Positions 7,201 to 26,860 of a stretch of 38,592 bases of DNA are shown in pieces. The stretch is from Candidatus Omnitrophota bacterium. GTDB lineage: Bacteria; CG03. The stretch covers positions 1 through 38,592 of the forward strand of contig VMTH01000160.1 of the NCBI GenBank assembly GCA_013791745.1, given 5' to 3'. The translations under genes were made by a program, and so were the position numbers. The notes under the pieces are model-generated. The model ran no database searches, had not been told where the DNA came from, and was given only the letters and a program-made list of their open reading frames with translations. Position 1 is the stretch's first letter. Each line of letters begins with the position of its first letter.

Positions 7201-8094
7201 TCAGAATTTGACGCCGACGCTCGTTATGTACGCGTAGCCCAGAGCGCCGTGCGGGAGAAAAGCGAAATCCGCGAAATAGCCCCCGTCCTGCCAGCCCAGG
7301 CCGAAACTGAGGTTCAGGTCATCCTGATAAGACGAACCTATTCTCAGCGTGAGATTTTTCTGCCGCTTGAATTCAATGCCGAGAAGATACTGTATCTTCT
7401 CATATCCGGTGAGTTTCACCTCGCTGACGAGATAGAACCTGCCCATTTTCTGAAGGGCGCCGATCTGCAAGGACCGGGGAAGTTCCTCTTTTTCATTTAT
7501 TATTTTTTTCTTTCCTCCGAAGTTCTCAACCACCGCGCCGAAAGCTGTCGTGCGGGAGGGCTGTGTCAAAAATCCTATATCCCACGCGTGATGATTGTAA
7601 TCATTACCGTAAATTTTCTGACTGAGCTGTTTGTATGTCACGCCCGTGACGGTGTAGCGTTTCAGGCGGAGGCCGTATGACATGCTCAGAACGCCGTATC
7701 TGTCCGTGAAATCTCCGAGCTTTTCACCTGCGGCATCCCGCGCCGTATCCTCAAAACTGTAATTCTGCCAGCTCAAACCGAAATGCCCGGCGTTGACTGA
7801 TGCGGCATTCTGCTTTGTTGACATATACCACGCGTTCTGGGAAAAAGACGCCGCTCTTTCCTGCTTAAAAGCCAGCATCGCGGGATTGACCCGCCAGCAA
7901 TCACGGCCCTCCCACAGCGCGGAGGCCCCGTTCATCGCCGCCAGCCGCGCCGACGCGGGTATCTTAAGAAAAGCGAAGCTCCTTGTGCCGGGGTCTTCCG
8001 CGAATGCTAAATGAATAAATAACAAAATAAAAATCAAAACCGCGGGTAGGCGAAAGCTGTGCGCAGTCTTTGGTTTCTCGGCTGTTCTTCTCAT
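7201..8094 (-). CDS. PorQ/PorV-like exported barrel (297 aa)
   Basis: An N-terminal signal segment (VLIFILLFIHLAFA) is followed by a degenerate PorV-family signature: SFAFLKIPASARLAAMNGAS, then CWRVNPAMLAF, where other members have YNPAGL. The rest alternates polar and hydrophobic residues with many Tyr/Phe and ends in ITSVGVKF, with a terminal Phe as is common for outer-membrane barrels. The length fits PorQ-type proteins (about 300-350 aa). Its ATG overlaps the stop of the lamin-tail/CTD gene by 4 nt (ATGA), so the two are probably translationally coupled. I infer it is the partner barrel of that CTD protein. The family assignment is moderately secure; a role in secretion is inference. Confidence 0.75.
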   Translation of the reverse strand: MRRTAEKPKTAHSFRLPAVLIFILLFIHLAFAEDPGTRSFAFLKIPASARLAAMNGASALWEGRDCWRVNPAMLAFKQERAASFSQNAWYMSTKQNAASVNAGHFGLSWQNYSFEDTARDAAGEKLGDFTDRYGVLSMSYGLRLKRYTVTGVTYKQLSQKIYGNDYNHHAWDIGFLTQPSRTTAFGAVVENFGGKKKIINEKEELPRSLQIGALQKMGRFYLVSEVKLTGYEKIQYLLGIEFKRQKNLTLRIGSSYQDDLNLSFGLGWQDGGYFADFAFLPHGALGYAYITSVGVKF

Positions 8095-8948
8095 CTTATT
8101 ATCGTCATCTTTCCTTTTGCTTTTCCCTTCAATGCCTTATAAACGATAAAATAATTTCCCGTGGCGACAATGCCGCCGTGCCTGTTCCTGCCGTCCCATT
8201 CGTTGGTGCCGGTCAAGCTGGCCACGAGCATCCCGCTCACATCATATATCTCCACGCTCGCGTTGAGCGAGCCCTTATCGGCCGGCGAGATGATCGTGCA
8301 GCTGTTTGAGCCCGTGGGCATAAAAGGGTTCGGCGCGCTGTAGCAGACGCTCTCCGTCCTGAAACTTCCGTAGTCTCCCGACTTCGGCGTGGGGAAAGAA
8401 TTCACATAAAAATCAGCGGCGTTATTGCCGGTGTCGGCTCCGGCGGGATCTCTTGTGAGGGATTCGCCGCTCCCTGCCTCCTGGGCGGCAGTTCCTCCCT
8501 CGCCGTAAACATAGTCCGGCGACACATCGTCATACGCCACCCGATCCATTTCCACATCCGCGGAATTCACCAGCCGTATTCCCTGCAGAGAGCTGTTGCT
8601 CATCTGCAGTTCATTGGAATATATGAAATCCGGATAGTCCGCGCCCCAGTCGTACCGTGTGTGCACCCGCGACTGCGTCATAAGAAAAAAAGATTTGGCG
8701 CCTATGACAAAACTCTTTGTCGGCGAAGAGATCGTTATAAAATCCGTGAAACTGTCAACGCTGTCCGACTTCTGTATCTTCCAGTTCGTTATGGTGATAT
8801 CGGCGGATGTGTTGTTGTAAAGTTCTATCCACTCATACCCCTCATCGCCGCCGTCGGGGTCATAGACGAATTCGTTTATCACGACGCTTCCGGCGAACAA
8901 TCTGCCGCATGCGACCAGGACCATGAATAAAAATAAAGCCCGCCTCAT
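8091..8948 (-). CDS. Lamin-tail-domain exported protein with FlgD-like C-terminal domain (285 aa)
   Basis: A signal peptide (residues 1 to about 19, ending RLFA) is followed by a bacterial lamin-tail domain (LTD). Its landmarks are VVINEFVYDP, EWIELYNNTSADITITNW and a C-terminal strand region up to about residue 165. The last 75 residues or so form a FlgD/type IX-like domain: SAPNPFMPTGSN, VEIYDVSGMLVASL, NEWDGRNRHG and GNYFIVYKA, ending KMTIIR. LTDs occur in many surface proteins and are thought to act as binding modules; the ligand is not known here. The gene overlaps both neighbours by 4 nt (ATGA), between a FadL-like barrel and a PorQ-like barrel. It is the smallest of the four CTD proteins in the window. 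Confidence 0.85.
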   Translation of the reverse strand: MRRALFLFMVLVACGRLFAGSVVINEFVYDPDGGDEGYEWIELYNNTSADITITNWKIQKSDSVDSFTDFITISSPTKSFVIGAKSFFLMTQSRVHTRYDWGADYPDFIYSNELQMSNSSLQGIRLVNSADVEMDRVAYDDVSPDYVYGEGGTAAQEAGSGESLTRDPAGADTGNNAADFYVNSFPTPKSGDYGSFRTESVCYSAPNPFMPTGSNSCTIISPADKGSLNASVEIYDVSGMLVASLTGTNEWDGRNRHGGIVATGNYFIVYKALKGKAKGKMTIIR

Positions 8949-10150
8949 AATCTCCAGTCCAGCGACACATTGAACATGTGCATGGACTCCTGAATTCTGG
9001 CGTCATAAGACGTGCTGAACTTCTGCCAGCTCTCCAGATAATTACGCCTGCCGTAAGCGTAGCCCAGATCCATGTACATGTTGGATGAGATGTAATATCC
9101 GAATCCGGCCGTAAGATATGCCCTCTCGACGGAAGTTTTCTCGTAAGAGGGAACGAAAGCCATTCCGTAACGGATCTGCAGGGTGCTGCTCAGATCATTC
9201 TCTATTCCGAGGTGATAAGACACCCTGTCTTTGTAATTGTGTTTTACACGCGTGACGGGATCGATAAAACTCATGTCCGACCAGAAGGTCTTTACAATGT
9301 CAAAATAAATAGAGGCCGAAACGGCGCCGGCCCAGATGTGGTTCACCCCGAAGACGAGTTTGCGCGGAAGATCCAGCTCGCCTTTATATTTCAGGCTGGC
9401 GCTGCCGCTTGTGTGTTTGACATCATAGTCGAGCCCCGCCGGAGCGGTGTACGCCAAACCGTAATTCCAAAGCCCCCTGTCCCTGTAAAGAGAAAAATTC
9501 GTGCGGCTCCCCGAAAAATCATATTCCCTTTTTTCCCGCTTCGTGGAGGCTTCGCTTGTGCCGATTATGCTCGTCTCAACCGACGGGCTCCCGCTTATTA
9601 TCTCATGAGTCATGCCCCATGCCCAGCCGCCTGAAAATTTTAAGGCCGCGGCAATATCAAAACTCCTTATATTCCCGGAACCCTTGTAATCAAATTTACC
9701 GATATAGCTCCCTCCGGAATAAGCTTCTTCCTCGTGTTTATAGGAAAAATTCATCAGTTGTATCATACCCAAACCCAGTCTCACCCTGTCGCTGAAAGCG
9801 AAAACAAAAGCCGTCTCCGGAACTTCAAACCAGGAATTGGAATTATAATACGCTCCGCCCTCATCGGCCGACCAGTCGTTATCGGGGATTATCCTTTCCG
9901 AGGCGATAACAAGGGGGAGAGAAAAATAAAACCTGCTCCCGTCAAAAGCCGACATAGACGCGGCATTGCTGAAAAGGCCCGTCGCGTTCTTCGCGGATGA
10001 GGCCGACGTTAAACCCAGAGCGAGGGATTTCGCGCCGCCGGAATACACGGGATCGCCCAGATCAAGCATCCCCAAATTGGTAAAAGCCGGCGCCGGAATT
10101 GCCAGTGCCGCCAGCAGCGCCGGAATTAAAATTTTTATCGTTTTTTTCAT
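8945..10150 (-). CDS. FadL/OMPP1-like outer-membrane barrel (401 aa)
   Basis: A signal peptide (MKKTIKILIPALLAALAIPAPAFA-type) is followed by GGAKSLALGLTSASS and LFSNAASMSAFDGSRF. This resembles the FadL/PorV plug region, in which Asn-Pro/Ala-Gly follows a glycine-rich segment. The remainder is beta-barrel-like with many aromatic residues and ends in NVSLDWRL. FadL-type proteins are about 400-450 aa and carry hydrophobic compounds across the outer membrane; the substrate cannot be read here. The gene starts 11 nt after the HhH-barrel gene, with GGGGG close to the ATG, and its stop overlaps the lamin-tail gene start. It could equally be a distant PorV-family member working with the CTD cargo. 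Confidence 0.65.
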   Translation of the reverse strand: MKKTIKILIPALLAALAIPAPAFTNLGMLDLGDPVYSGGAKSLALGLTSASSAKNATGLFSNAASMSAFDGSRFYFSLPLVIASERIIPDNDWSADEGGAYYNSNSWFEVPETAFVFAFSDRVRLGLGMIQLMNFSYKHEEEAYSGGSYIGKFDYKGSGNIRSFDIAAALKFSGGWAWGMTHEIISGSPSVETSIIGTSEASTKREKREYDFSGSRTNFSLYRDRGLWNYGLAYTAPAGLDYDVKHTSGSASLKYKGELDLPRKLVFGVNHIWAGAVSASIYFDIVKTFWSDMSFIDPVTRVKHNYKDRVSYHLGIENDLSSTLQIRYGMAFVPSYEKTSVERAYLTAGFGYYISSNMYMDLGYAYGRRNYLESWQKFSTSYDARIQESMHMFNVSLDWRL

Positions 10151-12270: not shown

Positions 12271-13725
12271 TCATTGTCCAATTTCCTGTTTGCATTTTTC
12301 AATAATACGCAGCGACTGGGGGTGGGAAGGATCTATTTCAAGTATTTTTTCAAATTCTGTTATAGCCTGCGAATATTTTTTGGCCTGATAGAGCTTCAGC
12401 CCCTTGAAATACATCTGTTTCTTCAGTTTCTCGGCTTCTTCAGGCGTTAATTTTTTCTCCGCTTCCTCTGGTTTTTCTTCCCTCACCGGCGGAGCGTATT
12501 CCAGCCCCTCCGGTTTCCCCGACGGCGCGGTGAGAGTTATATAATCCTTTATCTTATCAAACTGCTTCTTGGTAAAACGCGGCACCTTCAGCAGATCCTC
12601 TTTGGCCGTAAACTGCCCGCTGTTATTTCTGTAATCCACAATCCTGACCGCTGTCACCTTTCCTATGCCCGGCAGCGCGTCAAAATCGGCGACTTCCGCC
12701 TTGTTGATATCGGTAAGCTCCACGGGCTTCTCTCCCGGCGCGGCCTGCACGACCGTGCGCGGCCGTTTCTTTTCCTTTTTGTAATATTCCGTCGGGGCCG
12801 CCGACTCCCTTTTCTCCCCCCATCTTAAAGACGCCGAAAAAACATGCTGATTGTCGAGCACTTCATGCGTCTGGAAAGCGTAGTCAAAATCTATACGGTT
12901 GAGAATTATGCCGAAACCGAAAGAAGCCCTCTGCGGTTCCGGCTGAACGCCGAATCTAATGCAGAAAGCCGGCACCACATTTATCTCTGCGCCGAGCTTG
13001 ATAATATCCTCTTCCCTGTCGGCTGGCATATTCCAGTCAATGACCGTTATCAAACCCCTGAAAGGACGATAGCACAGGCTGCCGGTCAGATCCCTGTAGA
13101 GGGTTTCCGAAGCTATCTGGGGCCGGTTGAGGCCTCTTGAGAAAACGCCTATGGAAAGTTGTGTGGACACCACGCCCATCGCCCCCGCGTCAAAAGACAG
13201 CGCCGAAGCGCTGCCGCCGCCCTCTATTTGAAGGCCGAGGTTCCTGATATTATAACCGAAATAAGCGCCCGGAACGAGCATGAAACTGTGCGTGAAAATC
13301 AGTTCGCTTTCCTTATAGTATGACGCGCCGAAGGAAACATAGTTGAAAGCGAAGGATCCGGCCGTCTTTGTGGGGAGCATAAAACCCGCGCCGCTGTGTT
13401 TCATGTCGGCTTCGCCGTAAAGAGAGGTCTGCGAAAATGACAGCGCCGAGGCGCTCAAAAGATTAAGCCCGGCGGGATTGAAAAAAGGAGCGCTGTAATC
13501 ATTGGCAAGCGAAGTGTAGGCGCCGCCCATGGCCGCGGGGCGCGCGTAAAGAGGCTTGTCCTCAAAAGCGGCGTAAACATTGACGAAGGCGGCAAAGAGC
13601 AAAAGAAAAAAGGGAAAAAGGGGACGATGAAAAAGGGGACGATGAAAAAGGGGACGATGGAAAGTGATTTTCCGAGAAAACCAATAATTCCTAAAAAATA
13701 TTAAGGGCGTCCCAATATTCCTCAT
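12271..13725 (-). CDS. PorV-type barrel fused to a helix-hairpin-helix domain and a TPR (484 aa)
   Basis: Residues 53 to about 305 form a PorV/UPF0164 barrel with the family signature ARPAAMGGAYTSLANDYSAP and FFNPAGLNLLSAS. A ComEA-like double HhH follows at about 333-395 (VELTDINKAEVADFDALPGI, GKVTAVRIVDYRNNSGQF). After a charged linker, a TPR occupies 430-484 (YFKGLKLYQAKKYSQAITEF). The start is fixed by the ATGA overlap with the upstream CTD gene. This leaves an unusually long signal-peptide n-region containing FHRPL three times in tandem, encoded by a 15-bp DNA repeat. Fusion of a PorV-like barrel to an HhH is unusual as far as I know. It is the direct partner of the 322-aa CTD protein by position. 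The HhH and TPR probably face the periplasm (inference). Confidence 0.85.
   Translation of the reverse strand: MRNIGTPLIFFRNYWFSRKITFHRPLFHRPLFHRPLFPFFLLLFAAFVNVYAAFEDKPLYARPAAMGGAYTSLANDYSAPFFNPAGLNLLSASALSFSQTSLYGEADMKHSGAGFMLPTKTAGSFAFNYVSFGASYYKESELIFTHSFMLVPGAYFGYNIRNLGLQIEGGGSASALSFDAGAMGVVSTQLSIGVFSRGLNRPQIASETLYRDLTGSLCYRPFRGLITVIDWNMPADREEDIIKLGAEINVVPAFCIRFGVQPEPQRASFGFGIILNRIDFDYAFQTHEVLDNQHVFSASLRWGEKRESAAPTEYYKKEKKRPRTVVQAAPGEKPVELTDINKAEVADFDALPGIGKVTAVRIVDYRNNSGQFTAKEDLLKVPRFTKKQFDKIKDYITLTAPSGKPEGLEYAPPVREEKPEEAEKKLTPEEAEKLKKQMYFKGLKLYQAKKYSQAITEFEKILEIDPSHPQSLRIIEKCKQEIGQ
13615..13659. repeat. Three in-frame 15-bp tandem repeats inside a signal-peptide coding region
   Basis: The unit AAAAAGGGGACGATG (plus strand) occurs at 13615-13629, 13630-13644 and 13645-13659 without mismatch. 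Read on the minus strand it encodes the pentapeptide HRPLF three times. The first unit with its flank (AAAGGGAAAAAGGGGACG, 13609-13626) is identical over 18 nt to the minus strand at 34616-34599. This suggests a dispersed mobile or slippage-prone short repeat rather than protein-driven sequence. Confidence 0.85.
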
Positions 13726-14690
13726 AGTTTCCGTCCTATCGCCACCACCGTCTGTTCTTTGACGACGCCGCCGGTGTCCTGATCGGCGACTTCCACCGAA
13801 ATTATGTACATACCGCAGGGAAGAAACTGCTGATTGACGTCCCTGCCGTCCCAGATGTAATCGTAATGCTGGGCCAAAAATTCCTCACCCTTGACGATTG
13901 CCCTCACAAGGCGGCCCTTCGCGTCGTAGACGAGCACATTGACCCTCTGTTCCGTAACCGGAGCGCTCGGCAGATTGAAGACTATCCTGCACGATGAAGG
14001 TTTCCCCGCCGGAGTGGAATAGGGGAAAAACACTTTTAAAACATCGCCGGAATCGGGGTTAAAGGTTTTAAGGCCTATGGTTTTCAGATAAGCCGGCAAC
14101 GGATCATATGAAAACCTGACGGTGTCCACATAAACATCATTGTTGTTGTTCACTGTTTCCTTGACGGCTATATACACCTTAGCCCTGACGGCATTGGCAG
14201 GGGCCGCCATTCCCGGGGATGAGACAGAATGCCAACCGTCAAAAGTGCTGAGATTCGTTCCCGATATCAGCCCTGTGTCTTTTCCCAGATCATTACCTGA
14301 GGCGTCATACCATTTGACATAAAGCTGTATATCCGTGTGCTCTATTTCGCCGGCGGCGGCCTCGCTGGCGACATAAAAATGCGCGCTGAGCGAAAAAGCG
14401 TAATCATCCGAAGGTGACAAACTTCCCGTGGCCGTAACAAGGTTTATGGTATCGCTGTTGAGCGTCCGGCCGCTGAAAGCCGTTGTCGGATCCTTGAATT
14501 TGCAGGAATAACCGCCGTCGTTGCTATAGTCGCTTGAGGCGGTGATGCTGGTTGAATTCGCGCTCCATCCCGTCAGAGTGCCGTTATTAAAATTCTGATT
14601 GGTCAGCGATATGCTCAGCGCCCACGCCAATGACACAAACAGCGCAAACGCCGCGCCCGCGACAACAAATTTTAATTTTTTATTTCCCAT
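13722..14690 (-). CDS. Exported CBM-like protein with FlgD-like C-terminal domain (322 aa)
   Basis: A signal peptide (VVAGAAFALFVSLAWA) is followed at about residues 25-195 by a jelly-roll module resembling carbohydrate-binding domains of the CBM4/9/22 type. Its landmarks are NNGTLTGWSANST, SCKFKDPTTAFSGRTL, DIQLYVKWYDASG and ETVNNNNDVYVDTVRF. The same module occurs three times in the 2831-aa protein. Residues 210-322 form the FlgD/type IX-like tail (VNVLVYDAKGRLVRAI, YIWDGRDVNQQ, GMYIISVEV). AGAGGAGAA lies just before the ATG at 14690. The gene overlaps the HEPN gene upstream by 19 nt and the PorV-HhH-TPR gene downstream by 4 nt. It is probably a secreted surface protein; ligand binding is inferred from fold only. 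Confidence 0.8.
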   Translation of the reverse strand: MGNKKLKFVVAGAAFALFVSLAWALSISLTNQNFNNGTLTGWSANSTSITASSDYSNDGGYSCKFKDPTTAFSGRTLNSDTINLVTATGSLSPSDDYAFSLSAHFYVASEAAAGEIEHTDIQLYVKWYDASGNDLGKDTGLISGTNLSTFDGWHSVSSPGMAAPANAVRAKVYIAVKETVNNNNDVYVDTVRFSYDPLPAYLKTIGLKTFNPDSGDVLKVFFPYSTPAGKPSSCRIVFNLPSAPVTEQRVNVLVYDAKGRLVRAIVKGEEFLAQHYDYIWDGRDVNQQFLPCGMYIISVEVADQDTGGVVKEQTVVAIGRKL

Positions 14691-15345: not shown

Positions 15346-16146
15346 CTATGCCCTCGCCTTTTCGATTCTCGGCGGCAGCTTGATGCCTTTCATGTCAAAA
15401 AAACCCGCCACTATGGCTCCCGCGAAATAAATGACCCACAGATATGTGCCGTATCCGGTCACCAGCGCCGCGAAGCCCGCCACCACCATGGAACAGGCGA
15501 ATATTATGAGCGACACTTCCAGAAAATACCATTTCTTAGTCATCATGTTATAAATGGAATCCGGCGGGTAATTGTGCCTTTTGTGTCTGACAATTCCCGC
15601 CGCGAAAAGACAGAAACCCACTGGGGATATCCCCTGCACAAAAAGATGTATCAGCACGAGCTCAAGGCGCCTGGGGCCTTCCATAAACCATTGCGCGTCG
15701 TAAAGAGTGATGAAAGAATTCTGCGCGATTATTTTTGAGCCGTCAACCGCGGCTATGTTTATGAGCACGAATATCAGTCCCATAAAAGCGGCCACGATAA
15801 AAACGGCGGCCTGCACGATTTTCGGCACCTTCTTGTCTTCCGATGTCCAGTTGAAGATGGCCACAAGCAGCGACGGGGCGAACAGCGCTATCATCAGAAA
15901 CTGCCTCACGCAGTTCACCGCGAGCGGCGAAGGATGAGGCCCTATAATATTCTGCAGGGGCCTTGAAAGAAGCCACAGCCCCAGGGCGACATAAGCGTAG
16001 AAGGTCCCCTTTATGGTCAGCTCGCCCATGATGAGCGTGCGGCCGCGGTTGCTCTTTTTTATCTCATAAGCCATAGCGAAATAAACAAGGCCCGCTACCA
16101 CCGGCAGCGCGAGGTTCAGAATTATCAGCATAAGCCCCTCAATCAA
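15346..16146 (-). CDS. Polytopic membrane protein of unknown function (about 261-266 aa)
   Basis: About seven hydrophobic segments are visible, near residues 6-26, 45-62, 77-99, 110-132, 165-188, 208-228 and 232-248. The chain ends in a short basic tail. I recognise no family with confidence. The layout resembles seven-helix sensory input modules but no signalling domain is attached. The longest reading starts with TTG at 16146, whose GAGAAGGG is only one base away. An ATG at 16131 (residue 6) preceded by GAGGGG is at least as likely. The gene lies 6-21 nt after the SpoVG-domain gene, and its stop codon directly abuts the MntA start codon, so it belongs to the same operon. Confidence 0.7.
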   Translation of the reverse strand: MIEGLMLIILNLALPVVAGLVYFAMAYEIKKSNRGRTLIMGELTIKGTFYAYVALGLWLLSRPLQNIIGPHPSPLAVNCVRQFLMIALFAPSLLVAIFNWTSEDKKVPKIVQAAVFIVAAFMGLIFVLINIAAVDGSKIIAQNSFITLYDAQWFMEGPRRLELVLIHLFVQGISPVGFCLFAAGIVRHKRHNYPPDSIYNMMTKKWYFLEVSLIIFACSMVVAGFAALVTGYGTYLWVIYFAGAIVAGFFDMKGIKLPPRIEKARA

Positions 16147-16152
16147 CCCTTC

Positions 16153-17316
16153 TCAATACTCATCATCCGAAGCGCCGCCTCCCGATCCCGATTCCGAATC
16201 GTATTTGTCAGTGAGACTCTTCTCAACAACGCTTTTGAGCTTTTTGTCTTTGATCTCCACCTGGTTTATCCATGTGCCGCCGCCCTCGGGCGCGCGGGCG
16301 GGCCAGGAAACCCAGCCGCCCCATTTCCCTTCCATTATCTTGCATTCGATCTCGATCTTGTTGTTGAAAGTCATGGCGCAGAAAACCTTGAGCTTGCTGC
16401 CGCCGCGGGTGAAAGGAGAGTATTTTGACACCTTATACGATATCTGGCTTGAAGGTTTTGACGACGGCTCTTTTTTGACAATGGCGTCTGTCAACTCTTT
16501 TTCAAAAGCGGGGTCAAGGATCTTTATCTGCGGATAAACCTTGCCCCGTTTATTGACGTAGGCGGGAAAATCGAGCTTGGTGCGGCCGGCGATCTCCTTC
16601 ACCTTTATTTCCGATATTTTTATGGCGTTGTTGAGCACGACCGACGCTATGGCTTTCGTCGTGCCGGCGCCGCTCACAGGCGTCACCTCCACCTCTGTCA
16701 CCGTCAGCGGCAGGGATTTTCCGCCGGGGATTATTTCCGCCTCATAGGATGTTTCTTTCTCGTATTTTTCAATAACGCTTTTCTCTATCTTCTTCTTTAT
16801 TTCGGGCTTGATGAGGTCAACCTGTTTGACCCATTTGCTCCCGGATTTAGTGGAGGGCCAGGAAACCCACGGGCCCTTGCTCCCCGTCATGACCTTGCAC
16901 TCCACCTCCACCTCGTTATTGAATGTCACCGCGGAAAAGGCCTTCATGGACGATCTCTGCCCCTTGGGGTCATAGAGCGACATCTTTGACACCTTGTAGG
17001 AAAGCTTGCTGGATACGGAACCCGCGGGCTTGCCCATCTTTATGGCCGATATCACGCGGTCTTCCAGCGCCGAGTCTATGAATTTGACCTGCGGGAATAT
17101 TTTTCCGCCTTTTGACACATATATCGGCGGTTTTATCTTGATCTGGTCGCCTCTCTTGAGAACGTCTATCCCCGAAATCTTAAGATACCCGTCCAGCACA
17201 ACAGTGGCTTCCTTGCCATTTATGCTCACCTCTGTCACGCCCATGACGGCCGACGCTTTTGGCGCCGACGCCAGGACAAACATCAAGGCCAACATCAGTT
17301 TTATGGATCTTTTCAT
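16153..17316 (-). CDS. Exported protein with four tandem SpoVG-like domains (387 aa)
   Basis: A signal peptide (MKRSIKLMLALMFVLASAP, cleavage after about residue 23) is followed by four repeats of about 80 residues that look like SpoVG. Domain 3 (about 205-290) is clearest: VTEVEVTPVSGAGTTKAIAS, then EIKVKEIAGRTKLDFPAYVN and YPQIKILDPAFEKELTDAI. This lines up with the SpoVG pattern VTDVR...RAIASITLD...VAMPSK...DI. Domain 1 (24-97) resembles domain 3. Domains 2 (103-195) and 4 (293-375) resemble each other, with FSAVTFNN or FCAMTFNN and WVSWP. The whole is therefore a duplicated pair. SpoVG is normally a single-domain cytoplasmic DNA/RNA-binding protein, so a signal peptide and four copies are unexpected. 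A GGGGGAG ribosome binding site precedes the ATG. The function is unknown. Confidence 0.75.
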   Translation of the reverse strand: MKRSIKLMLALMFVLASAPKASAVMGVTEVSINGKEATVVLDGYLKISGIDVLKRGDQIKIKPPIYVSKGGKIFPQVKFIDSALEDRVISAIKMGKPAGSVSSKLSYKVSKMSLYDPKGQRSSMKAFSAVTFNNEVEVECKVMTGSKGPWVSWPSTKSGSKWVKQVDLIKPEIKKKIEKSVIEKYEKETSYEAEIIPGGKSLPLTVTEVEVTPVSGAGTTKAIASVVLNNAIKISEIKVKEIAGRTKLDFPAYVNKRGKVYPQIKILDPAFEKELTDAIVKKEPSSKPSSQISYKVSKYSPFTRGGSKLKVFCAMTFNNKIEIECKIMEGKWGGWVSWPARAPEGGGTWINQVEIKDKKLKSVVEKSLTDKYDSESGSGGGASDDEY

Positions 17317-17330
17317 TTCTCCCCCTTATC

Positions 17331-18368
17331 TCACTCCAAATCTATCTCTTCGCCTTTGTCTTCCCAAAGAATCTCTTTTTTCTCGGCTTTCTGCGGCTTT
17401 TCGCGAATAACCTTTTCTCCGCGCCTGAGCTTCAGCTCAAGACGGTGCGACACAACGGAACTTATTCCCGACGGCACGCTGTAAGCGTAATTAAACGCGA
17501 GATTGTCCTCACCGAAAACCTTCATATTGATACCGAACCCGAAAGAAATTTCGTCGTTATTATAACCGGCTCTCATCGCCAGCTTCTGGGAAATCCTCCA
17601 TTCAGAGCCGACACAGGTCGTTGTCTTATCCCCCCAGTCCTGAGCCCGTATATCCTGAGCGACGGCAAGAGTGAATTTTCCGTTTGTAAAATCCCCCGCG
17701 AAACGCATAATGGACGGCACCTCGTCCTTATCATATATCCCTATATCCGCCGGCAGCATGTTCTGATAAGTGATCGCGGCGTTGAGCGTCCGCGAGAGAG
17801 CGGCCCTCATTCCTATGTCCGCGGTGAGAGCCGAAGCGCCCCACGCGGAATCAAAAGTCTTGTCTCCCAGCGACATCGTCCTGTCGTCGGGGAAATATTC
17901 GTGAGAGAGCTGTTTGAGAGTGACGCCCGTCTGAAAACGCTCCGACACCCTGTATGACAGAGCCGCGGAGAGAGATGTTTCCTGATAGAGCTTATCTTTG
18001 CTGTCTCCAGCCGCGAACTGGGTGTAGCTGATCCCGAAAACGCCTTTCGTATAAACGGGGATCGCGAAAGAAAGCGCCGTCGTGTTGAAATCCACATTCA
18101 GCAGGCCCGAGAAAGGGTTGTGGTAATAAACCGACAACTCCGGATTGCTTATATTTTTCAAACCCGCGGGATTATAGAATATGAGGTCGGGGCTGCCGTA
18201 CATCGTGGAATATGCCCCGCCCATCGCCGCGCCGCGCGCCGACAGGCCCGTGTCAAAAAACGCCGCGAAAGAACGCGATGTCAAAACTGACAGACAGCAG
18301 ACAGCGATGACTAAAATCAATCCTGCCGCAGAAGCGCTGTTCCTGTTTGTTATTTTGCTATTCATCAT
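17331..18368 (-). CDS. PorV/UPF0164-type outer-membrane barrel (345 aa)
   Basis: A signal segment (AAGLILVIAVCCLSVLTSRSF) is followed by the full family signature TGLSARGAAMGGAYSTMYGS and LIFYNPAGLKNISNPELSVY. Repeated amphipathic strands run to about residue 310. A charged C-terminal tail (REKPQKAEKKEILWEDKGEE) extends beyond the barrel, where most members end in an aromatic strand. The start overlaps the stop of the 2831-aa CTD protein by 4 nt (ATGA); the second ATG, one codon on, is also possible. By analogy with type IX systems it would bind the CTD of that cargo in the outer membrane, but this is not shown by the sequence. It is the best conserved PorV-like protein here. Confidence 0.88.
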   Translation of the reverse strand: MMNSKITNRNSASAAGLILVIAVCCLSVLTSRSFAAFFDTGLSARGAAMGGAYSTMYGSPDLIFYNPAGLKNISNPELSVYYHNPFSGLLNVDFNTTALSFAIPVYTKGVFGISYTQFAAGDSKDKLYQETSLSAALSYRVSERFQTGVTLKQLSHEYFPDDRTMSLGDKTFDSAWGASALTADIGMRAALSRTLNAAITYQNMLPADIGIYDKDEVPSIMRFAGDFTNGKFTLAVAQDIRAQDWGDKTTTCVGSEWRISQKLAMRAGYNNDEISFGFGINMKVFGEDNLAFNYAYSVPSGISSVVSHRLELKLRRGEKVIREKPQKAEKKEILWEDKGEEIDLE

Positions 18369-21300
18369 TTTACCACGATTATCACGCCGGTCGCTTTCGC
18401 TCCGCCGGCGCCGAATGACTCATAAATATAAGCGCCGCTCTCAACCATCTGCGAGGCCGGCACCGCTGCGGATGTTTCCCTGTCCGCGCCGTACCACACT
18501 ATGGGGGATGTCGCCGGAGCGCTTGTTGTCAAAGTGACAACTTCTCTTCCCCTCGGGTCATATATTTTCACTCTCACCGCCTCATCAAAATTAATTCCGC
18601 CAGGAATTCTGGCAGTCAGAAATCTCTGAACGGGTTTTATGCCGTCAGCTTTTGTCGCAAAAAGAGCAAACCTCGACAAGTGCGGAAATTTGAAAGTCAA
18701 AGTGTTAGCGGAAGTATCCATATCACCGCCTATAAAACGCCACACATGGTTTCTCTCGTCAAGGAAATAAGCTTTAAGCCTCGCCTCCGCCACGCCAGCA
18801 AGGGTTCCATTCTCAAGATCCACCGCTCCGTCATTGTTCAGGTCAAGATAAAGCAGCGTTATTGAAACAGGATTCGCGAATGCCACATCCATGTCATAAC
18901 CGGAAGCGTCCTTGGCGTCTATGTCCCAGCAGATAACCGGCATCCCGCCGTTTATGGAAACATCCACCCTCTCATCATCCAAACCCTTCGGGAAAGAATA
19001 CGACGCCGCGGCAGCGAGGGGAATAACCGTCTGGGTTATTTTCAAACCGGACGGCGTTGTCCCGTCAACGGCTCCCATGTATATGCTCACCGCTCCGTCC
19101 AAATCATTGCCGTCCGGCAGGGCAAATGTAGAACCCTGATCCCATTCCGTGGAACTGCTCCGGCTTACTGAAACCTGGATATTTTCCGTTTCAAATTTTC
19201 TACCGCTGCCCTCGTATTTTATCTGATAATAGAAATTTGAGCTGCCTATAAAGGATACCGGGATTGTGACATCCGCGCTTTTAGGAGTAGCTGTCCATCC
19301 CACTGTAAAATCGGAATTTGTTAATATCGCCGTTGCCCGGGCGACTCCTGTCCTGAAATACTCAACTTCCAGTGTATCCACTGACTGCGCGGCGTTGAGT
19401 TCAAAAGAAAAGCTCATATCATTTCCGATCATGCAAATTTCACGCGGAAAGGGAACGGGCGACACAATAACGGGGATTGCATAGTTAAGAACTGTTATTT
19501 GACAGTAATCCGCACTTGTGTTGGCCGCTTTATCAACCGCCCACACTCTGTAGTAATATGTGGTTCCCTCTGTCAAATCATTGCTTGTCCAGGACAAACT
19601 TGTCGTGCTGCCGAGAGCGACAAACGCGCCAATGTCGCCCACCCTCCGGCTGACATTATAATAATCAATATCCAGCGGTCCCGCAAGCCAGAAAATCGTC
19701 GCCGTTGTGGAAGATGTTCTGATCCATGCAATATCGGCCGCGACCGGCGCGTCCGGAACAACATCTATAACAGTCAAAGTTTCTAAATTGCTTTCGGCTG
19801 AGGGATTTCCCGCCTCATCCTCCGTTTTCAAAAGAAAATAATAAAGTTCACCCGGATAAAGCCCCATTAATTTATGTGAGCACAAAGTGCCCGGCGCGAT
19901 ACTCGTGGACGCGTAATATTCATACTCCATTGAAGCCCACACCGAGGTAACAGATGAATATCTTATCCGGAATAAACCGTCTATTATGTTCCCTATTGTG
20001 CCGTCGTCGCCGGGAGCGGTCCATGTGAGAAGGACATTGCCTTCCTCATCTTTGTCAAAAGGAGAACCCAAATTCACAGCGTTCAAATCAGCGACAGCGG
20101 CGGGGGATGTGGAGTCGTTCCGTATTCCTTTTGTCGGCCTTGAAAAACGCCAGTCATCTATGGCATTTCCCGTATTATCGCTGTCATACGAATTTTCATC
20201 CCGCGCCAGAGAATAACCGACAGCGCCCTGCGACCAGTCAACCATATTGGTGTTGGCAATGTAAGACAAAGCCGAAGGGTGATTAGCGGGCTCCGAAATG
20301 GGCGACCACTGATGAGCCCAGTAGCATTCCACATAAGTGTCGTCCCAGCTTTCCGGACTAAGCGACACCGCTCTATCGGAATAAAGAACGGCGTCAACGA
20401 CATTTCTATCGCTATCGGCAAGAATAACAGCCCCTTCGGCATCGTTAAACTGCGCGTAATCAAGATAGAGATCGTAATAACCGTTGCCGTTGGTATCAGC
20501 CGGCGGCGTTTCATCCGTGCCGCTTGAGCCGAAATTCATAACCACATAGGAATCAGGCGGCAGAAAATAGTATGTTGTCGGAATTATTTTTATCGGCTTG
20601 AAATAATCCTGTCCCGATGATTTTAAGTAGTGCAGATAGACTATCCAGCCGCTCAAATTCACAGTGCCGCCGCTGGCATTGTAAAACTCAATCCAATCCT
20701 TGCCCTCCGCGTTTATCGGCGAAATTTCGTTAATAACAACAGGCGAACCTGTTATATCCGTGGCAACCGCGCCAGTCTGCCCACCTGTTGAAAGAGGCCC
20801 CTTATTGCCCTGTTCATCCTCCGCCCTTACCGCTATGTAATATTTCTCGCCCGGTTTAAACTCTCCTATGATGTGATCCTGCTGCGTGCTTGTTGACCCC
20901 GGAATCCAGAAAATGTCCGCTGTGGATTCTTTGTCGAATTCCAGCCTCATTCTGTCTTTCGCGTTTTCCTTAGAAGCGTAAGTAATGAGCGTTGCCGCCT
21001 TGAAATCCGATTCCGTGACGATAGGATATTCGCTGTACCTCGCGTCGTAGGAACTAACCTCGCCTCCGGCCAAACCGTCGTCGCCTACATTTGAAAAAAT
21101 TATTCTCAGACTTCCTCTGTACGGTCCGGGCGTGACGAAAAGATCTGCTATCTGGCCGGGCGCGGTCACATCTATCGCCGCGGTCAGGAAATTAGCGCTG
21201 CCCTGCGTTTGAGCTTCGGCAATGGACCACTCATTTCTGGAAGGATTCGTGCCGTCGGTGGAATTACCGTCCCTGGCGATTGAATAGCCCTTTATGCCGA

Positions 21301-24300
21301 ATTTCCACGAAACGCAGTAATCCTCAACCGCGCTGTCATTCTTGCCGTCGGCCTCCACGCCGAACCACTGGCCCGATAAAACCGCCGTATTGTATTCCAG
21401 CCGGCCGTTTTTGGCGGGCGAAAGTTTGAAAGCGTATTCGGATTTTCCGGGATAACCCACAAGATCGCCCACCCATTCATTAGTACTGCCTTCTTTATCG
21501 GCGACGCACACGGCGTCAATAATAGTTTCGGCCGCGAAAGGATTCCTCAGAGTTATCATAATGTCCGCGGGAGAAGTCGGACCGGAAGGAATCCCCCCCA
21601 CATCGGCGTAAAAATCGCGATAACCGTTACCGTTTATGTCTCCGCTGACATCGTCTTCGTCGGCCAAAGAAGAATTGAAGTGAAGAACAATATAAGTCCT
21701 GCTTTGAAAAGTAAAATCGGGAAAAGTTTTAAAGAGAGAATTGTTTATATACACTTTCCATGTTTTGATATTCACGGTGCTCGAAGAGTTGTAAAACTCT
21801 ATCCAGTCATTATCAGATGATTCGGACGGGGCCACCTCGTTTATCCTGACGAGGGAACCGACAAAACCCTCTTTCGCTCTGGCGAAAGCCTGCGTGCCGG
21901 ATGCGATCTGTCCCGCGCAATTTTCATCTATTGCCGACATATTTCCGCTGGCGTCTATGGTCTTCAGCGCGAACCAGTAAGTGACGCCCGGCCGCAGATT
22001 CAGTGTTTTTTGCTGCGTGGCGCCCACCGGCGATACCGTCCAGTATTCCGGCATCTGGTCATACACGGTTGATAACAGCCACCATTCGGCCGCGCCGGTC
22101 GTGACAGGAACCGTGGCAAAGATCACTTCATAGCTCGCGCCCGTTATATTATCATACAAAGTACCATCATCGCCCGGAGCCGTCCAGCTCAGGATTATCT
22201 CGCCCGGATTGCTTCCGGCAGCCGCGCTCAAGTCGGTTATTGCCGCGGGAGGCACGGTGTCAACAAAGGCCGCAATGCCGTCAGCATATAAGTCATTATT
22301 GTTACCCACGCTTTCTTTGACCTGAATTGAGAACACGGCACTGGCCGCGTTTGAGGGCGCGATAACATCCATATATTTGAGTTCCCATGCGCCGAAAGCG
22401 CTCAGAGTAATTTCCGATGATGTGGATGAAGACAGGAAAACCCCGGCGTTATCCCGCCAGCTCACATGAATAAGTATTTGAGTATTTCCCACCGAGCCGC
22501 CGTTATTGTCAAGATAAAAATACCCCCCGACAGTGTAAGTGGAACCTCCTGTTGCGGAAGCGGCCGAAGAATTAAGCTCCCGCCCCGAATAAGCTGTTGT
22601 CGGATCGTTAAATTTGCAGGAATAAGTGCCGAATTTTTTATAAGAATCCGATTGAGTAATGCTTGTGCTCGCCGAATTCCAGCCCACAAGGGCAGGACTC
22701 AGCTCAAATCCGGCGTTCGCTATTCTCAGAAGATTATTATATCCCTTGGAATACGCCCTGTTTTTGTTGTCGGCGTAATCGCTCTCATTCCAGCCGCCCC
22801 AGATCGGATCGCCCGGAACGCCGTTATCTTTCGCTTTTATCGCGAAATACCAAGTCGTCCCGGGTGCTAGCCCGCTCACGACGCGGCTTCCGGAAAGCCC
22901 CTCCACGGAACCGGGGACTATCGGCGTCCAGCTCTGCGTATACGTATAAATGTTCGCGGAATCAAAGTTGGCGGAAGTGATCTGATTCTGTGAATATTTC
23001 ACAAGATAACCATCGGCGGTTCCGCCTCCTGCCCCGTCGTCACCCGGCGCCGTCCAGACAAGATTAACCGTTCCTATCACAGAACCTGTCAAAGCCGTCA
23101 AATCGTCTATATCCGCCGGCGGGATAGGATCCGACGGCGCCTTAAAAGCCGTAGCGTGCGCCTGTGTCGTTGACGATAACGAAAGCGTATCTGTCTCAGA
23201 CACATTGAATGACGAATCATAAGTGACTATCGCGAAATAATAAGTCACACCAGCTGTTAAAGAACCGATAGTGGCTGACACCGTTTCTCCGGGATCTTCA
23301 GCAACCATCTGTAAATCAATATATCCCTGATTTGAGGTATTCGTCCACCATGTTGCCGTGTCCCCGTCAACGACAAAATCAACCGACCAGCCGATGATGT
23401 AAAAGCCGCCGGTATTACTGCCAGTTGTCCCGTCGCTTCCCGGAGCTGTCCAAGTCAGATCCACCTCACCGTTGCCCGAACCTGTCAGTGCCGACAAATT
23501 AGTAATCGCCCCGGGAGCCACATTATCATATACCAGTTCCACATCATCCACATATGCGTGGTTATTATTGTCCACAGATTCCTTCGCTTCAATTTCAACC
23601 GCAACTCTCACCGCTCCGGCTGGAGCTGTAGCTCCAAAACTTATCTGTTCCCAGGTATTGAAAGCCGCGAGTGTTATATTGCCCGAAGCATCCGTCGGCA
23701 ATAATGCGCCTGTGTTATCATACCAGCGCACATTTATCTGGAATTGAGCTTCGCTTATCGCCCCTGCGATCTGTTCAACATAAGCCCAGGCTGAAGCCAG
23801 ATAATAATTCCCTGCCATTACGCTTGGTGTAGAGGACACAATGCCCCTGTATGAATAAGCACTTGCAAGAGTAACAAATTTACAGGACTTTGCGCCGGAG
23901 TGTACAACAGTATTTTCTATTAAAATGCTGCCGGCCGTGCCGTCTTTAGTCCACGAGGAAAAATCGTTTTCAAAACTGTAATTACGGTCATAAAGCAAAC
24001 TGCTCGTGTTAGGCGACCAGCCCGGCGGGGGCGGGGCGGGAGCGGCGGTTGAGGCGTAAGCTTTCGCCTGCGTTACGCTTGAGGTCGACTTCGCTCCATA
24101 GACAGAATCATTGCCGCTGGAATCGTATGCCTCTATTGAAAAATAATAAGTTGTTCCCGCCGTCAGGCCCGTTATCGTCGCTGTTTCCGGTTTACCCACA
24201 GCCGCCGTGGCTCCGGTGCTTCGTATTATAATATTTGCCGACTGCCACCATGAGGTGACATTTTCAGTATATGCGGCTACGCTGTAAGTCGCCATTGCTA

Positions 24301-26860
24301 TAAGGTAATGGCCTCCCGAAAGATTATTAAGAGTGCCGTCGTCGCCCGGCGCGGTCCAGGTCAGATCCACTTCGCCGCTGTTCGTTCCCGTCGCCGCCGC
24401 CAAATCCGTCACCTGCCCGGGATCAGTTGTATCGGGAGCGGAATAAACCGAGTTCGCTGACCGGGGCGTGCCGTTTATGACAACAGCCCCCGAATCCAAA
24501 CCATTCTTTGTTATGGTATCGTTATTAGCCCAATTCGCCGCGCTGTTTCCGGAAACCGTCGGGTCTATCCTTTCCATTGTTTTTTTCGGAACTGTGTTGG
24601 AACCCGCAAACCAAGCGACCGCAGAGCAGTCAACCGAATCTATTAATGTATCAGTGTTATCGTAAAGCTTGAGACTGTCTGCGGGGGGGCCATTTACTAA
24701 TCCTATGCCTATTACAATATCCGCCACTACATCCGTTGCTAACTCTTGATCTTCTATAAGGTAGTAGCTGCCCGACGCAATAGACCCTGCTAAATCATAC
24801 TTGGTCACATCGTCATCCATTATATACCAGCCCGTAAGATCAATAGCGCCAGCTGTATTATTGTAAAGTTCAATCCACTCATCGTTAGCATTTGTATCAG
24901 TTCCCATCCATGCTATTTCATTTATTACAACGCTACCCGCTCCTGCCACAGCAGCCGTGGCTGTCAGTGTTGTGATCGCCGTGTCAAAGGCGGTCATTAC
25001 TTCGTCGCCGTTATAGGCCCACACGCGGAAATAATAAGATGTGTTTCCGCTCAAACCCGTGACAGCCGTCGTGTTCGCCGTCAGGCCGCTCGCGAAAGCG
25101 ACGGGCGTTGATACATTGGAACTGAAATCATTCTTTGTGGAATACGAAAGGCCGTAGTTGGTATAACCCGGATTGCTGTTTATAGCCCATGTTATCGTCA
25201 CGCTCGACTGAAAAACACCCGAAAAATATGTGCCTGTTGACGGATTTGCCAGCGTCCATGTCGTGGCCGCAGACGAAAGAGCGCTTTCACCCGCCGAATT
25301 GCTTGAAACAATTACCCTGTAATAAGAAGTGTTGATTGTAAGATTTGTTTCCGTCCATTCCAGCACATCGGCGGCAAGCTCCTTGCGTATGGAAGAAGTA
25401 TTCGTAGCATATTTTATTCTGTAGCCCGTTTCGCCGTCAACATCAGCCCATGTCCACTTTATCGTCGTGGATGACAGCCCCGCGCCAGCCCATGAACCCG
25501 GAATCGCGGGAGGCGTTATATAAGGAAAGGCGCTCACATAAGCGTAAGCGCTTGAAAAAACAGTGCTGAAAAGCCCGTTCGCGGCATCATCCCCCCAGTC
25601 ATAAGTGGTGATTCTGTAATAATATGTGTTGAAATTAATCAGCGGACTCGTCGAGGGATATGTGCTATATCCGGCAGACACATTTGAGGAAAAAATAATA
25701 CTGCTGAAATCCCCGACAGGATACGTCCCGAATGACGAAACCTCCACGATGTAATGGTCAATATCAAACGCCGACGGTTCCGTCCAGCTAACAGTTAATT
25801 GTCCATCGGCGGGTGTTGAGTTCACGGCGCTGACGATATCCGGTTTCAGGTCGCAGGCGGGAGCCGTGCTTTTCGTGTTAAAGGCGCCGTAATTCCAGAC
25901 AGAAGTATTGGAAGCGTCGTCCGTCACCGTCACGGCGAAATAATACGTCGTCCCCGGATAAAGCCCTGTCATCGTATAACTGTGTTCCGACCACTCCGTT
26001 GTATAAGCCGTTGATTTCACAATCTTGTACAAAGTGTAAGGCGACTGCGATACAGCGCTCAAAGCCGCCGTATCCGTGAGCGTGTATGTGGCGGCGTAAA
26101 TAGTAAGCGACCCGCTCGTAATATCACCGCTCGTCCCGTCGTCGCCCGGCGCCGTCCAGACAAGGTTCACTTTACCGTCGGCGTCACCCATTAGCGCCGT
26201 CAGATTACTTATCCCGCAGGGCGGAATGTTATCTGCCACAACTGCTTCTATAAATTCCGCATCATCGATATAAATATCGTTGTCATTCCCGCCTGTCTCT
26301 TTTCCGCTTATCAAAAACCTTGCCTGCGTAGCGGTTGCGGGAGCGGTAATAGTTGAAAATATCAACTTATTCCATACAGTAAATGTGGACAGCGTAAGGT
26401 CTCCCGATACCGGCTCTGACGACAATAAAACGTCGCTTGCGTCATACCATCTAATTCCCAGCTGAATCTGAGTCTCACTAATTACCCCGGCTACAAGACT
26501 GACATAAGCCCAAGCCCCGACATAATAACCTGTCCCGGCGGTCACAGTTACTGTTGAAGAAAGAACATACCTTCCCGTATAAGCAGTTGTCGGATTATCA
26601 AATTTGCAGGAACGGGTGCCCCTGACATTTACTTCATTACCATCAATAAGAGTGTTATTTGTAGCCCCTCCGCCATTTTCTTCCCAGCAGAGGTCATCTG
26701 CAAGAAGAGCGTCGCTTTCAAAACCGTAATGCCATCTGTTGTCAACTGTATTCGGAAGCAGATTTGCCGCGAAGACGGGAACAGAGAAAAGCAGCAGTGA
26801 AAGAATGGGGACGGTTCCAATTCTTTTCAGCAGTGTTTTGATTAAATTTTGCTTTTTCAT
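18365..26860 (-). CDS. Giant exported multidomain protein: CBM-like, FN3 and lamin-tail modules with FlgD-like C-terminus (2831 aa)
   Basis: A signal peptide (LKRIGTVPILSLLLFSVPVF) is followed by a CBM-like jelly roll at about 34-210 and four FN3 domains to about 635. A lamin-tail domain covers about 641-803 (VVINEIAWMGTDTN, DEWIELYNNTAG). Then come FN3 and a second CBM-like module (953-1113), two FN3 and a third CBM-like module (1375-1532). FN3 plus lamin-tail domains near 1667 and 2038, two further FN3 and a C-terminal beta region follow. A FlgD/type IX-like tail occupies 2740-2831 (VKIYDPRGREVVTL, GAYIYESFG). Many FN3 units share the acidic loop WTAPGDDGT. No enzyme domain is recognised; adhesion or glycan binding is inferred. 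The start overlaps the HEPN stop (ATGA) and the stop overlaps the PorV start (ATGA). Confidence 0.88.
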   Translation of the reverse strand: MKKQNLIKTLLKRIGTVPILSLLLFSVPVFAANLLPNTVDNRWHYGFESDALLADDLCWEENGGGATNNTLIDGNEVNVRGTRSCKFDNPTTAYTGRYVLSSTVTVTAGTGYYVGAWAYVSLVAGVISETQIQLGIRWYDASDVLLSSEPVSGDLTLSTFTVWNKLIFSTITAPATATQARFLISGKETGGNDNDIYIDDAEFIEAVVADNIPPCGISNLTALMGDADGKVNLVWTAPGDDGTSGDITSGSLTIYAATYTLTDTAALSAVSQSPYTLYKIVKSTAYTTEWSEHSYTMTGLYPGTTYYFAVTVTDDASNTSVWNYGAFNTKSTAPACDLKPDIVSAVNSTPADGQLTVSWTEPSAFDIDHYIVEVSSFGTYPVGDFSSIIFSSNVSAGYSTYPSTSPLINFNTYYYRITTYDWGDDAANGLFSTVFSSAYAYVSAFPYITPPAIPGSWAGAGLSSTTIKWTWADVDGETGYRIKYATNTSSIRKELAADVLEWTETNLTINTSYYRVIVSSNSAGESALSSAATTWTLANPSTGTYFSGVFQSSVTITWAINSNPGYTNYGLSYSTKNDFSSNVSTPVAFASGLTANTTAVTGLSGNTSYYFRVWAYNGDEVMTAFDTAITTLTATAAVAGAGSVVINEIAWMGTDTNANDEWIELYNNTAGAIDLTGWYIMDDDVTKYDLAGSIASGSYYLIEDQELATDVVADIVIGIGLVNGPPADSLKLYDNTDTLIDSVDCSAVAWFAGSNTVPKKTMERIDPTVSGNSAANWANNDTITKNGLDSGAVVINGTPRSANSVYSAPDTTDPGQVTDLAAATGTNSGEVDLTWTAPGDDGTLNNLSGGHYLIAMATYSVAAYTENVTSWWQSANIIIRSTGATAAVGKPETATITGLTAGTTYYFSIEAYDSSGNDSVYGAKSTSSVTQAKAYASTAAPAPPPPGWSPNTSSLLYDRNYSFENDFSSWTKDGTAGSILIENTVVHSGAKSCKFVTLASAYSYRGIVSSTPSVMAGNYYLASAWAYVEQIAGAISEAQFQINVRWYDNTGALLPTDASGNITLAAFNTWEQISFGATAPAGAVRVAVEIEAKESVDNNNHAYVDDVELVYDNVAPGAITNLSALTGSGNGEVDLTWTAPGSDGTTGSNTGGFYIIGWSVDFVVDGDTATWWTNTSNQGYIDLQMVAEDPGETVSATIGSLTAGVTYYFAIVTYDSSFNVSETDTLSLSSTTQAHATAFKAPSDPIPPADIDDLTALTGSVIGTVNLVWTAPGDDGAGGGTADGYLVKYSQNQITSANFDSANIYTYTQSWTPIVPGSVEGLSGSRVVSGLAPGTTWYFAIKAKDNGVPGDPIWGGWNESDYADNKNRAYSKGYNNLLRIANAGFELSPALVGWNSASTSITQSDSYKKFGTYSCKFNDPTTAYSGRELNSSAASATGGSTYTVGGYFYLDNNGGSVGNTQILIHVSWRDNAGVFLSSSTSSEITLSAFGAWELKYMDVIAPSNAASAVFSIQVKESVGNNNDLYADGIAAFVDTVPPAAITDLSAAAGSNPGEIILSWTAPGDDGTLYDNITGASYEVIFATVPVTTGAAEWWLLSTVYDQMPEYWTVSPVGATQQKTLNLRPGVTYWFALKTIDASGNMSAIDENCAGQIASGTQAFARAKEGFVGSLVRINEVAPSESSDNDWIEFYNSSSTVNIKTWKVYINNSLFKTFPDFTFQSRTYIVLHFNSSLADEDDVSGDINGNGYRDFYADVGGIPSGPTSPADIMITLRNPFAAETIIDAVCVADKEGSTNEWVGDLVGYPGKSEYAFKLSPAKNGRLEYNTAVLSGQWFGVEADGKNDSAVEDYCVSWKFGIKGYSIARDGNSTDGTNPSRNEWSIAEAQTQGSANFLTAAIDVTAPGQIADLFVTPGPYRGSLRIIFSNVGDDGLAGGEVSSYDARYSEYPIVTESDFKAATLITYASKENAKDRMRLEFDKESTADIFWIPGSTSTQQDHIIGEFKPGEKYYIAVRAEDEQGNKGPLSTGGQTGAVATDITGSPVVINEISPINAEGKDWIEFYNASGGTVNLSGWIVYLHYLKSSGQDYFKPIKIIPTTYYFLPPDSYVVMNFGSSGTDETPPADTNGNGYYDLYLDYAQFNDAEGAVILADSDRNVVDAVLYSDRAVSLSPESWDDTYVECYWAHQWSPISEPANHPSALSYIANTNMVDWSQGAVGYSLARDENSYDSDNTGNAIDDWRFSRPTKGIRNDSTSPAAVADLNAVNLGSPFDKDEEGNVLLTWTAPGDDGTIGNIIDGLFRIRYSSVTSVWASMEYEYYASTSIAPGTLCSHKLMGLYPGELYYFLLKTEDEAGNPSAESNLETLTVIDVVPDAPVAADIAWIRTSSTTATIFWLAGPLDIDYYNVSRRVGDIGAFVALGSTTSLSWTSNDLTEGTTYYYRVWAVDKAANTSADYCQITVLNYAIPVIVSPVPFPREICMIGNDMSFSFELNAAQSVDTLEVEYFRTGVARATAILTNSDFTVGWTATPKSADVTIPVSFIGSSNFYYQIKYEGSGRKFETENIQVSVSRSSSTEWDQGSTFALPDGNDLDGAVSIYMGAVDGTTPSGLKITQTVIPLAAAASYSFPKGLDDERVDVSINGGMPVICWDIDAKDASGYDMDVAFANPVSITLLYLDLNNDGAVDLENGTLAGVAEARLKAYFLDERNHVWRFIGGDMDTSANTLTFKFPHLSRFALFATKADGIKPVQRFLTARIPGGINFDEAVRVKIYDPRGREVVTLTTSAPATSPIVWYGADRETSAAVPASQMVESGAYIYESFGAGGAKATGVIIVVK
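20001..26165 (-). repeat. Repeated FN3-encoding DNA segments inside the giant gene
   Basis: A near-identical stretch encoding WTAPGDDG (plus-strand core CGTCGTCGCCCGGCGCGGTCC) recurs near 20001, 22163, 23036, 23423, 24345 and 26137 with few changes. The copies show that FN3 modules were duplicated recently enough to keep DNA similarity. Such copies could recombine and change the length of the gene. Confidence 0.65.

Follow-up and report, generated by a model that had tools for sequence, protein, structure and literature searches.

The window, that is, the whole stretch of 38,592 nt that was analysed (a contig of a Candidatus Omnitrophota assembly of 2.0 Mb, 97% complete), carries on its minus strand an operon-like series of genes, from position 26860 down to 7201, that overlap or are separated by gaps of at most 15 bp. 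The series begins with a gene for a protein of fn3 repeats and lamin tail domains (LTD), followed by genes for a PorV-type barrel, for a protein with four SpoVG domains (the array protein), for a multi-pass membrane protein (the membrane partner), for a nucleotidyltransferase/HepT pair, for a CBM/FlgD-Ig protein, for a PorV barrel with a ComEA-type helix-hairpin-helix (HHH) domain, and for a further HHH protein, whose long remaining part is probably a barrel as well. On the 3' side of the latter are genes for a FadL-type barrel, for a lamin-tail protein and for another PorV-like protein. The coordinates of these genes, as well as of the parts of the array protein, are given in Table 1. We found no Pfam match for the last protein of the series and no Pfam or NCBIfam family match for the membrane partner.

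Table 1. Features of the SpoVG-array operon; positions are those of the window, residue numbers those of the array protein.
Feature	Position	Strand	Evidence
Four-domain SpoVG protein, predicted to be exported (array protein), 387 aa	16153..17316	-	Pfam SpoVG E=1.1e-23; homologues in 13/16 phylum genomes
Signal-peptide-like start, residues 1-23 (ASA/V)	17248..17316	-	Direct reading; comparison with cytoplasmic SpoVGs
Domain D1 (A type), residues 25-98	17023..17244	-	43% identity to D3, E=6e-14; groups with A-type domains
Domain D2 (B type), residues 104-190	16747..17007	-	Pfam SpoVG best stretch 120-187; own-genome scan E=7.6e-10
Domain D3 (A type), residues 204-284	16465..16707	-	Own-genome scan E=2.0e-7; profile stretch matching PDB 2i9x
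Domain D4 (B type), residues 292-373	16198..16443	-	AlphaFold2 pLDDT 90.4; Foldseek top ten all SpoVG
Secreted 2831-aa protein, fn3 repeats and lamin tail domains	18365..26860	-	fn3 4.6e-38; LTD 2.9e-32, three stretches
PorV/FadL-type outer-membrane barrel, 14 bp upstream of array gene	17331..18368	-	NCBIfam PorV_fam 2.3e-19, below cut-off
Multi-pass membrane protein (membrane partner), 6 bp downstream of array gene	15346..16146	-	
Exported carbohydrate-binding-like and FlgD-Ig protein	13722..14690	-	CBM_4_9 2.2e-7; FlgD_ig 1.6e-6
PorV-family barrel with ComEA-type HHH and TPR	12271..13725	-	HHH_3 1.4e-16; TIGR00426 (ComEA region) 3.4e-10; PorV_fam 4.3e-15
Exported ComEA-type HHH fused to long, probably beta-barrel, part, 700 aa	10162..12264	-	HHH_3 4.8e-12; TIGR01259 2e-5
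FadL-type outer-membrane barrel	8945..10150	-	Toluene_X 3e-10
Exported lamin-tail-domain protein, type IX-like C-terminal domain	8091..8948	-	LTD 6.7e-16; CHU_C 8.3e-5
Exported PorV-like barrel-group protein, last gene of tight run	7201..8094	-	Similar to L033, L082 and L086 barrels

The array protein is a member of the Pfam SpoVG family (PF04026), with a score of 83.5 bits compared to the curated cut-off of 29.6. In a six-frame scan of its own genome domains D2 and D3 each reached significance singly, and a search of the PDB with a profile of 11 homologues returned SpoVG structures as the only significant matches (2i9x at 1.2e-9, 2i9z and 2ia9). The assignment of D1 as a putative SpoVG-type domain rests on its likeness to D3. 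An AlphaFold2 model of D4 alone showed the EEEE-H layout of SpoVG, a four-stranded sheet followed by a C-terminal helix, and the ten best Foldseek matches of this model in the PDB were SpoVG chains (TM 0.64-0.76, probability 1.00). Since the D4 alignment included rows of canonical phage SpoVGs (ordinary viral proteins used solely to give the alignment depth), the model confirms the assignment and is not a fully independent proof of it. A full-length model made from four close rows had a pLDDT of 35 and was discarded; alignments of the D3D4 pair and of D1 with phage SpoVGs, in which rows were split or shifted by MAFFT, were not used for modelling. With the NCBIfam equivalog model of SpoVG (NF009749) the array protein scored 60.4 bits, below the cut-off of 108; that model describes a single cytoplasmic domain, while the array protein has four domains and an export-type N-terminus.

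The four domains, of 73-87 residues each, follow one another in the order A-B-A-B. The comparison of the domains within the protein paired D1 with D3, as well as D2 with D4 (46% identity, E=9e-27), and no cross-match between the A-type and the B-type domains was reported in it. Therefore, the array is a duplicated pair. The initial annotation, made from the sequence of the window, had described four SpoVG-like domains arranged in just this way, and had named a structure prediction with a different fold as an outcome that would speak against it; the domain searches, the D4 model and the conservation of the protein over the phylum all agreed with that description.

The N-terminus of the array protein is MKRSIKLMLALMFVLASAPKASA, followed by VMGVTEV, with a putative cut between residues 23 and 24. 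Read by eye, the leader has positive charges first, then a charge-free core of 13 residues, and ends with ASA, an AxA site, at residue 23. All three elements, the n-region, the hydrophobic core and the AxA site, are conserved in the relatives, in line with the signal peptide that had been proposed at the outset. Plain hydropathy did not separate exported from cytoplasmic SpoVGs, and the length of the charge-free core was used as the criterion instead. A charge-free run of at least 11 residues near the N-terminus was observed in 24 of the 26 related multi-domain proteins, while in 20 of 21 cytoplasmic SpoVGs this run was at most 9 residues long. The two multi-domain exceptions were L031, in which a single glutamine interrupts the core, and L085, a tandem two-domain SpoVG of genome G149 (L085:4066-4623) that has no leader, is apparently cytoplasmic and stands outside the exported family. 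By the positive-inside rule, the SpoVG domains of the array protein are predicted to lie outside the cytoplasm whether the leader is cleaved or not.

The initial annotation had called for a search for other exported proteins with several SpoVG domains, and such proteins turned out to be numerous. The four-domain array was found in 13 of the 16 genomes examined of the source phylum, a count that includes two genomes (G002 and G012) with arrays in pieces at contig ends. In G006, where no array was found, one contig starts within the partner gene, followed by the same genes downstream; the absence there is probably due to the contig break. Besides the array, the genome of the window has two ordinary SpoVG matches, on contigs C57 and C124, as separate genes; the exported array is thus an addition and not a replacement. 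Outside the phylum, in a sample of 386 genomes, two-domain A-B relatives with an export-type start were present in 14 genomes of eight families (f35, f62, f71, f121, f148, f190, f203 and f223); two of the f35 relatives carry lipobox-like cysteines (VVSC and LTAC).

A tree of single domains, which was built on few columns and is reliable for the deep A/B split only, had a branch with 100/100 support. On one side of this branch were D2, D4, the B domains of the two-domain proteins and canonical SpoVG; D1, D3 and the A domains of the two-domain proteins were all on the other side. In every lineage, therefore, the exported unit is an A-B pair, and the simplest account of the four-domain array is a doubling of this pair. 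The origin of the array may lie in an exported pair, as the exported two-domain versions found elsewhere suggest. The claim that SpoVG had been put to a new, extracytoplasmic use is therefore well supported at the sequence level, with the A-B pair and the export signal recurring in eight further families.

No relative of the exported array was found on viral contigs. On the other hand, 41 viral contigs (L100-L140) encode ordinary single-domain SpoVG relatives; the cytoplasmic form is thus carried by phages. In a separate case (L082, contig C112 of G130) a highly divergent exported SpoVG pair of 170 aa was observed about 3 kb away from an ordinary SpoVG gene on the same strand, with a gene for a LysM-carrying barrel protein between the two.

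Gene neighbourhoods showed two kinds of recurrent association, the first of them with the membrane partner. The partner gene is adjacent to the exported SpoVG gene in f1, f2, f203 and f148. Among the 386 genomes, 15 had a strong-scoring partner, and 13 of these 15 also had an exported SpoVG, compared to a background of 27 in 386 (P=3.5e-15); counted by family, the co-occurrence was 7 of 7 (P=2.5e-10). In G130 and G267 the partner is located within 1 kb of ComEC instead of beside an exported SpoVG. The partner, SpoVG and ComEC are therefore linked by two separate routes.

The second association was with genes of a DNA-handling type. In f3, f4 and a part of f6, exported PLD-type proteins and exported metallo-beta-lactamase proteins are encoded close to the exported SpoVG gene, the latter matching the C-terminus of ComEC/Rec2 (E=2.7e-40). 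ComEC itself lies on the same contig as the exported SpoVG, 7-16 kb away, in G009, G014 and G223. The neighbours in f190 include PLD, LTD, barrel and HHH-barrel proteins, with ComEC at a distance of about 7 kb; in f203 a metallo-beta-lactamase protein is found on one side of the SpoVG gene and the membrane partner with an HHH-barrel protein on the other. In f71 (G080) the exported SpoVG gene and the start of ComEC share 4 bp, and just upstream lies a gene for a ComEA-size HHH protein (HHH_3 7.4e-19). The ComEC protein of this locus (L073:1096-4365, 1089 aa) has an SNase-like domain (7.7e-10) near its N-terminus in addition to the Competence and metallo-beta-lactamase domains. In f35 the gene for a SpoVG lipoprotein adjoins one for a 1917-aa fn3-PLD-LTD protein, and in f148 the membrane partner is followed by an LTD protein and a barrel.

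An HHH_3 gene was found at most 6 kb from the exported SpoVG gene in seven families, with a chance of about 0.005-0.03 each, and of 0.5-5% when given per genome; the combined value of 5e-13 means no more than 'far beyond chance', since the 6-kb threshold was chosen after the loci had been inspected and the product omits families with no HHH gene or with broken contigs. The surroundings of the exported SpoVG in f62, f223, f121 and f148 yielded no HHH gene, and in f62 and f223 neither a DNA-handling kit nor an adjacent membrane partner was seen. DprA, ComEC and a secretin are present as well but widespread; the occurrence of DprA and secretin, both nearly universal, was dropped as uninformative. 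Across unrelated lineages, the gene clusters around exported SpoVG have the look of an envelope kit for binding, cutting and importing outside DNA. Of the 'surface-protein operon' of the initial annotation, the envelope operon stands, though a DNA-handling one rather than a generic set of surface proteins.

Distant SprA-like proteins of about 1700 aa (SprA belongs to the type IX translocon) were detected in eight of nine genomes checked, with E-values down to 5e-25, all below the curated cut-off; examples are G000:C77, G009:C8, G014:C37 and G157:C389. With the CHU_C/Por_Secre_tail C-termini and PorV barrels found alongside, they possibly make up a divergent type IX-like system.

Cytoplasmic SpoVG is a dimer in the B. 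subtilis crystal, and a complex of 55-60 kDa was reported for S. aureus. In the latter species DNA binding needs an adjacent basic doublet next to the helix, K50-R51 (PMC3688583), and in Listeria the cytoplasmic protein binds RNA (PMC4959528). The exported B-type domains keep this doublet by half: at least one basic residue occupies the doublet positions in 32 of 34 domains and both do in 3 of 34, with WP-A-R or WP-S-x-K where SpoVG has MP-S-K/R-K/R. The A-type domains have no basic doublet. In the array protein, invariant tryptophans (W150, W153, W162 and W338) stand where cytoplasmic SpoVG has F/M. The pI of the mature exported proteins varies from 4.7 to 10.1 and the net charge from -22 to +50; a basic surface is therefore not a trait of the family, and consistent basicity was dropped as support for DNA binding. 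The sequence neither proves nor excludes nucleic-acid binding by exported SpoVG, and the case for it rests on the family and on the neighbours.

From the export-type start, the domain identity, the A-B layout, the conservation and the neighbourhood, which are all read from the genomes directly, we infer the compartment, the binding of nucleic acid, its hand-over and its end use in transformation or nutrition. On the reading that we judge most likely, with a probability of roughly 0.55, exported SpoVG acts in the envelope as a nucleic-acid-binding receptor for DNA or RNA and serves DNA uptake or the processing and scavenging of extracellular DNA. The array protein would be made with a signal peptide, cross the inner membrane and work, as a single chain of two A-B pairs, either in the periplasm or on the cell surface. 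There it would capture extracellular DNA (or RNA) and pass it to the ComEA-type HHH proteins of the same operon that are linked to outer-membrane barrels, to the ComEC channel, and to exported PLD nucleases or ComEC-type metallo-beta-lactamases. In uptake or scavenging it would thus serve as a periplasmic DNA receptor, either an additional one or an alternative. The broader proposal, to which we give slightly less than even odds, is that exported A-B pairs form a widespread, so far undescribed class of periplasmic or surface DNA receptors in uncultured phyla, as a part of a DNA-import or extracellular-DNA-scavenging machine with the new membrane partner family, HHH-barrel fusions and ComEC-type enzymes.

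We place second a role of the array as a protein-protein scaffold or chaperone of the envelope that has lost nucleic-acid binding; we regard it as unlikely, at about one chance in four. Its clients would be the large fn3/LTD surface proteins or the PorV-type barrels, perhaps together with type IX-like secretion. The weakened doublet, the invariant tryptophans and the wide range of pI are in agreement with such a role, as are the SprA-like proteins and the plentiful PorV-type barrels and FlgD_ig/CHU_C/Por_Secre_tail C-termini in the operon. A scaffold, however, leaves unexplained the recurrent ComEA-type, ComEC, ComEC-type metallo-beta-lactamase and PLD neighbours, which come back in lineages whose surface proteins differ (f71, f190, f203 and f35). 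It is rather improbable that the conserved tryptophans (WxxWP) bind a polysaccharide or peptidoglycan, with the array anchoring the envelope complex to the wall: the replacement of F/M by tryptophans and the CBM_4_9/FlgD-Ig protein in the operon would fit, but no known sugar-binding family matched the array protein and its solved relatives are SpoVG only. That the protein is an ordinary regulator of the cytoplasm or the inner face, its supposed signal peptide being no more than a hydrophobic N-terminal strand, has the leaderless tandem protein of G149 in its favor and is very improbable, given that in complete relatives the first domain is preceded by a hydrophobic extension with positive charges first and AxA or lipobox motifs, and that the neighbours are envelope proteins, while cytoplasmic SpoVGs start at the first strand.

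To our knowledge, SpoVG has been studied so far only as a cytoplasmic DNA/RNA-binding regulator; in the open-access literature we found no paper on exported SpoVG, on a 'SpoVG domain' architecture, or on SpoVG with Elusimicrobia or ComEC. The domain and the fold are known, with the B-type domains siding with canonical SpoVG, whereas the compartment, the architecture and the context are new: the protein is predicted to be exported, has one or two A-B domain pairs per chain, keeps other gene neighbours, and has in its B-type domains W for M before the conserved P. With ComEA, the periplasmic DNA receptor, the array protein shares the predicted export, the company of DNA-uptake-type genes and the proposed binding of DNA outside the cytoplasm. 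Unlike ComEA, it has no Pfam match to HHH, which sits on two neighbouring proteins of the operon. A functional precedent, with no similarity claimed, is ComH of Helicobacter pylori, a periplasmic DNA receptor other than ComEA that delivers DNA to ComEC (PMC6877725).

If true, an exported SpoVG branch in many lineages would be a clear change of compartment for a nucleic-acid-binding fold, and it would point to how uncultured outer-membrane-bearing bacteria move DNA across the envelope. An operon in which outer-membrane barrels come directly paired with ComEA-type domains, together with a new membrane partner, would supply concrete genes for a long-open step of natural transformation.

Some other features of the locus could be of interest. 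A scan for promoters and terminators gave results only modestly above those for shuffled sequences and was set aside. A PAS-GGDEF-HD signalling protein of the cyclic-di-GMP type is encoded upstream of the operon (28260-29882), and in f62 two GGDEF-related proteins are encoded directly 3' of the exported SpoVG gene. Pairs of MNT-like nucleotidyltransferase and HepT/HEPN-like genes occupy two operon junctions, one inside (14672-15345) and one at the head (26857-27584). Such pairs were also observed at the same or other junctions in the relatives L028, L031 and L098, as if the operon repeatedly took up toxin-antitoxin modules.
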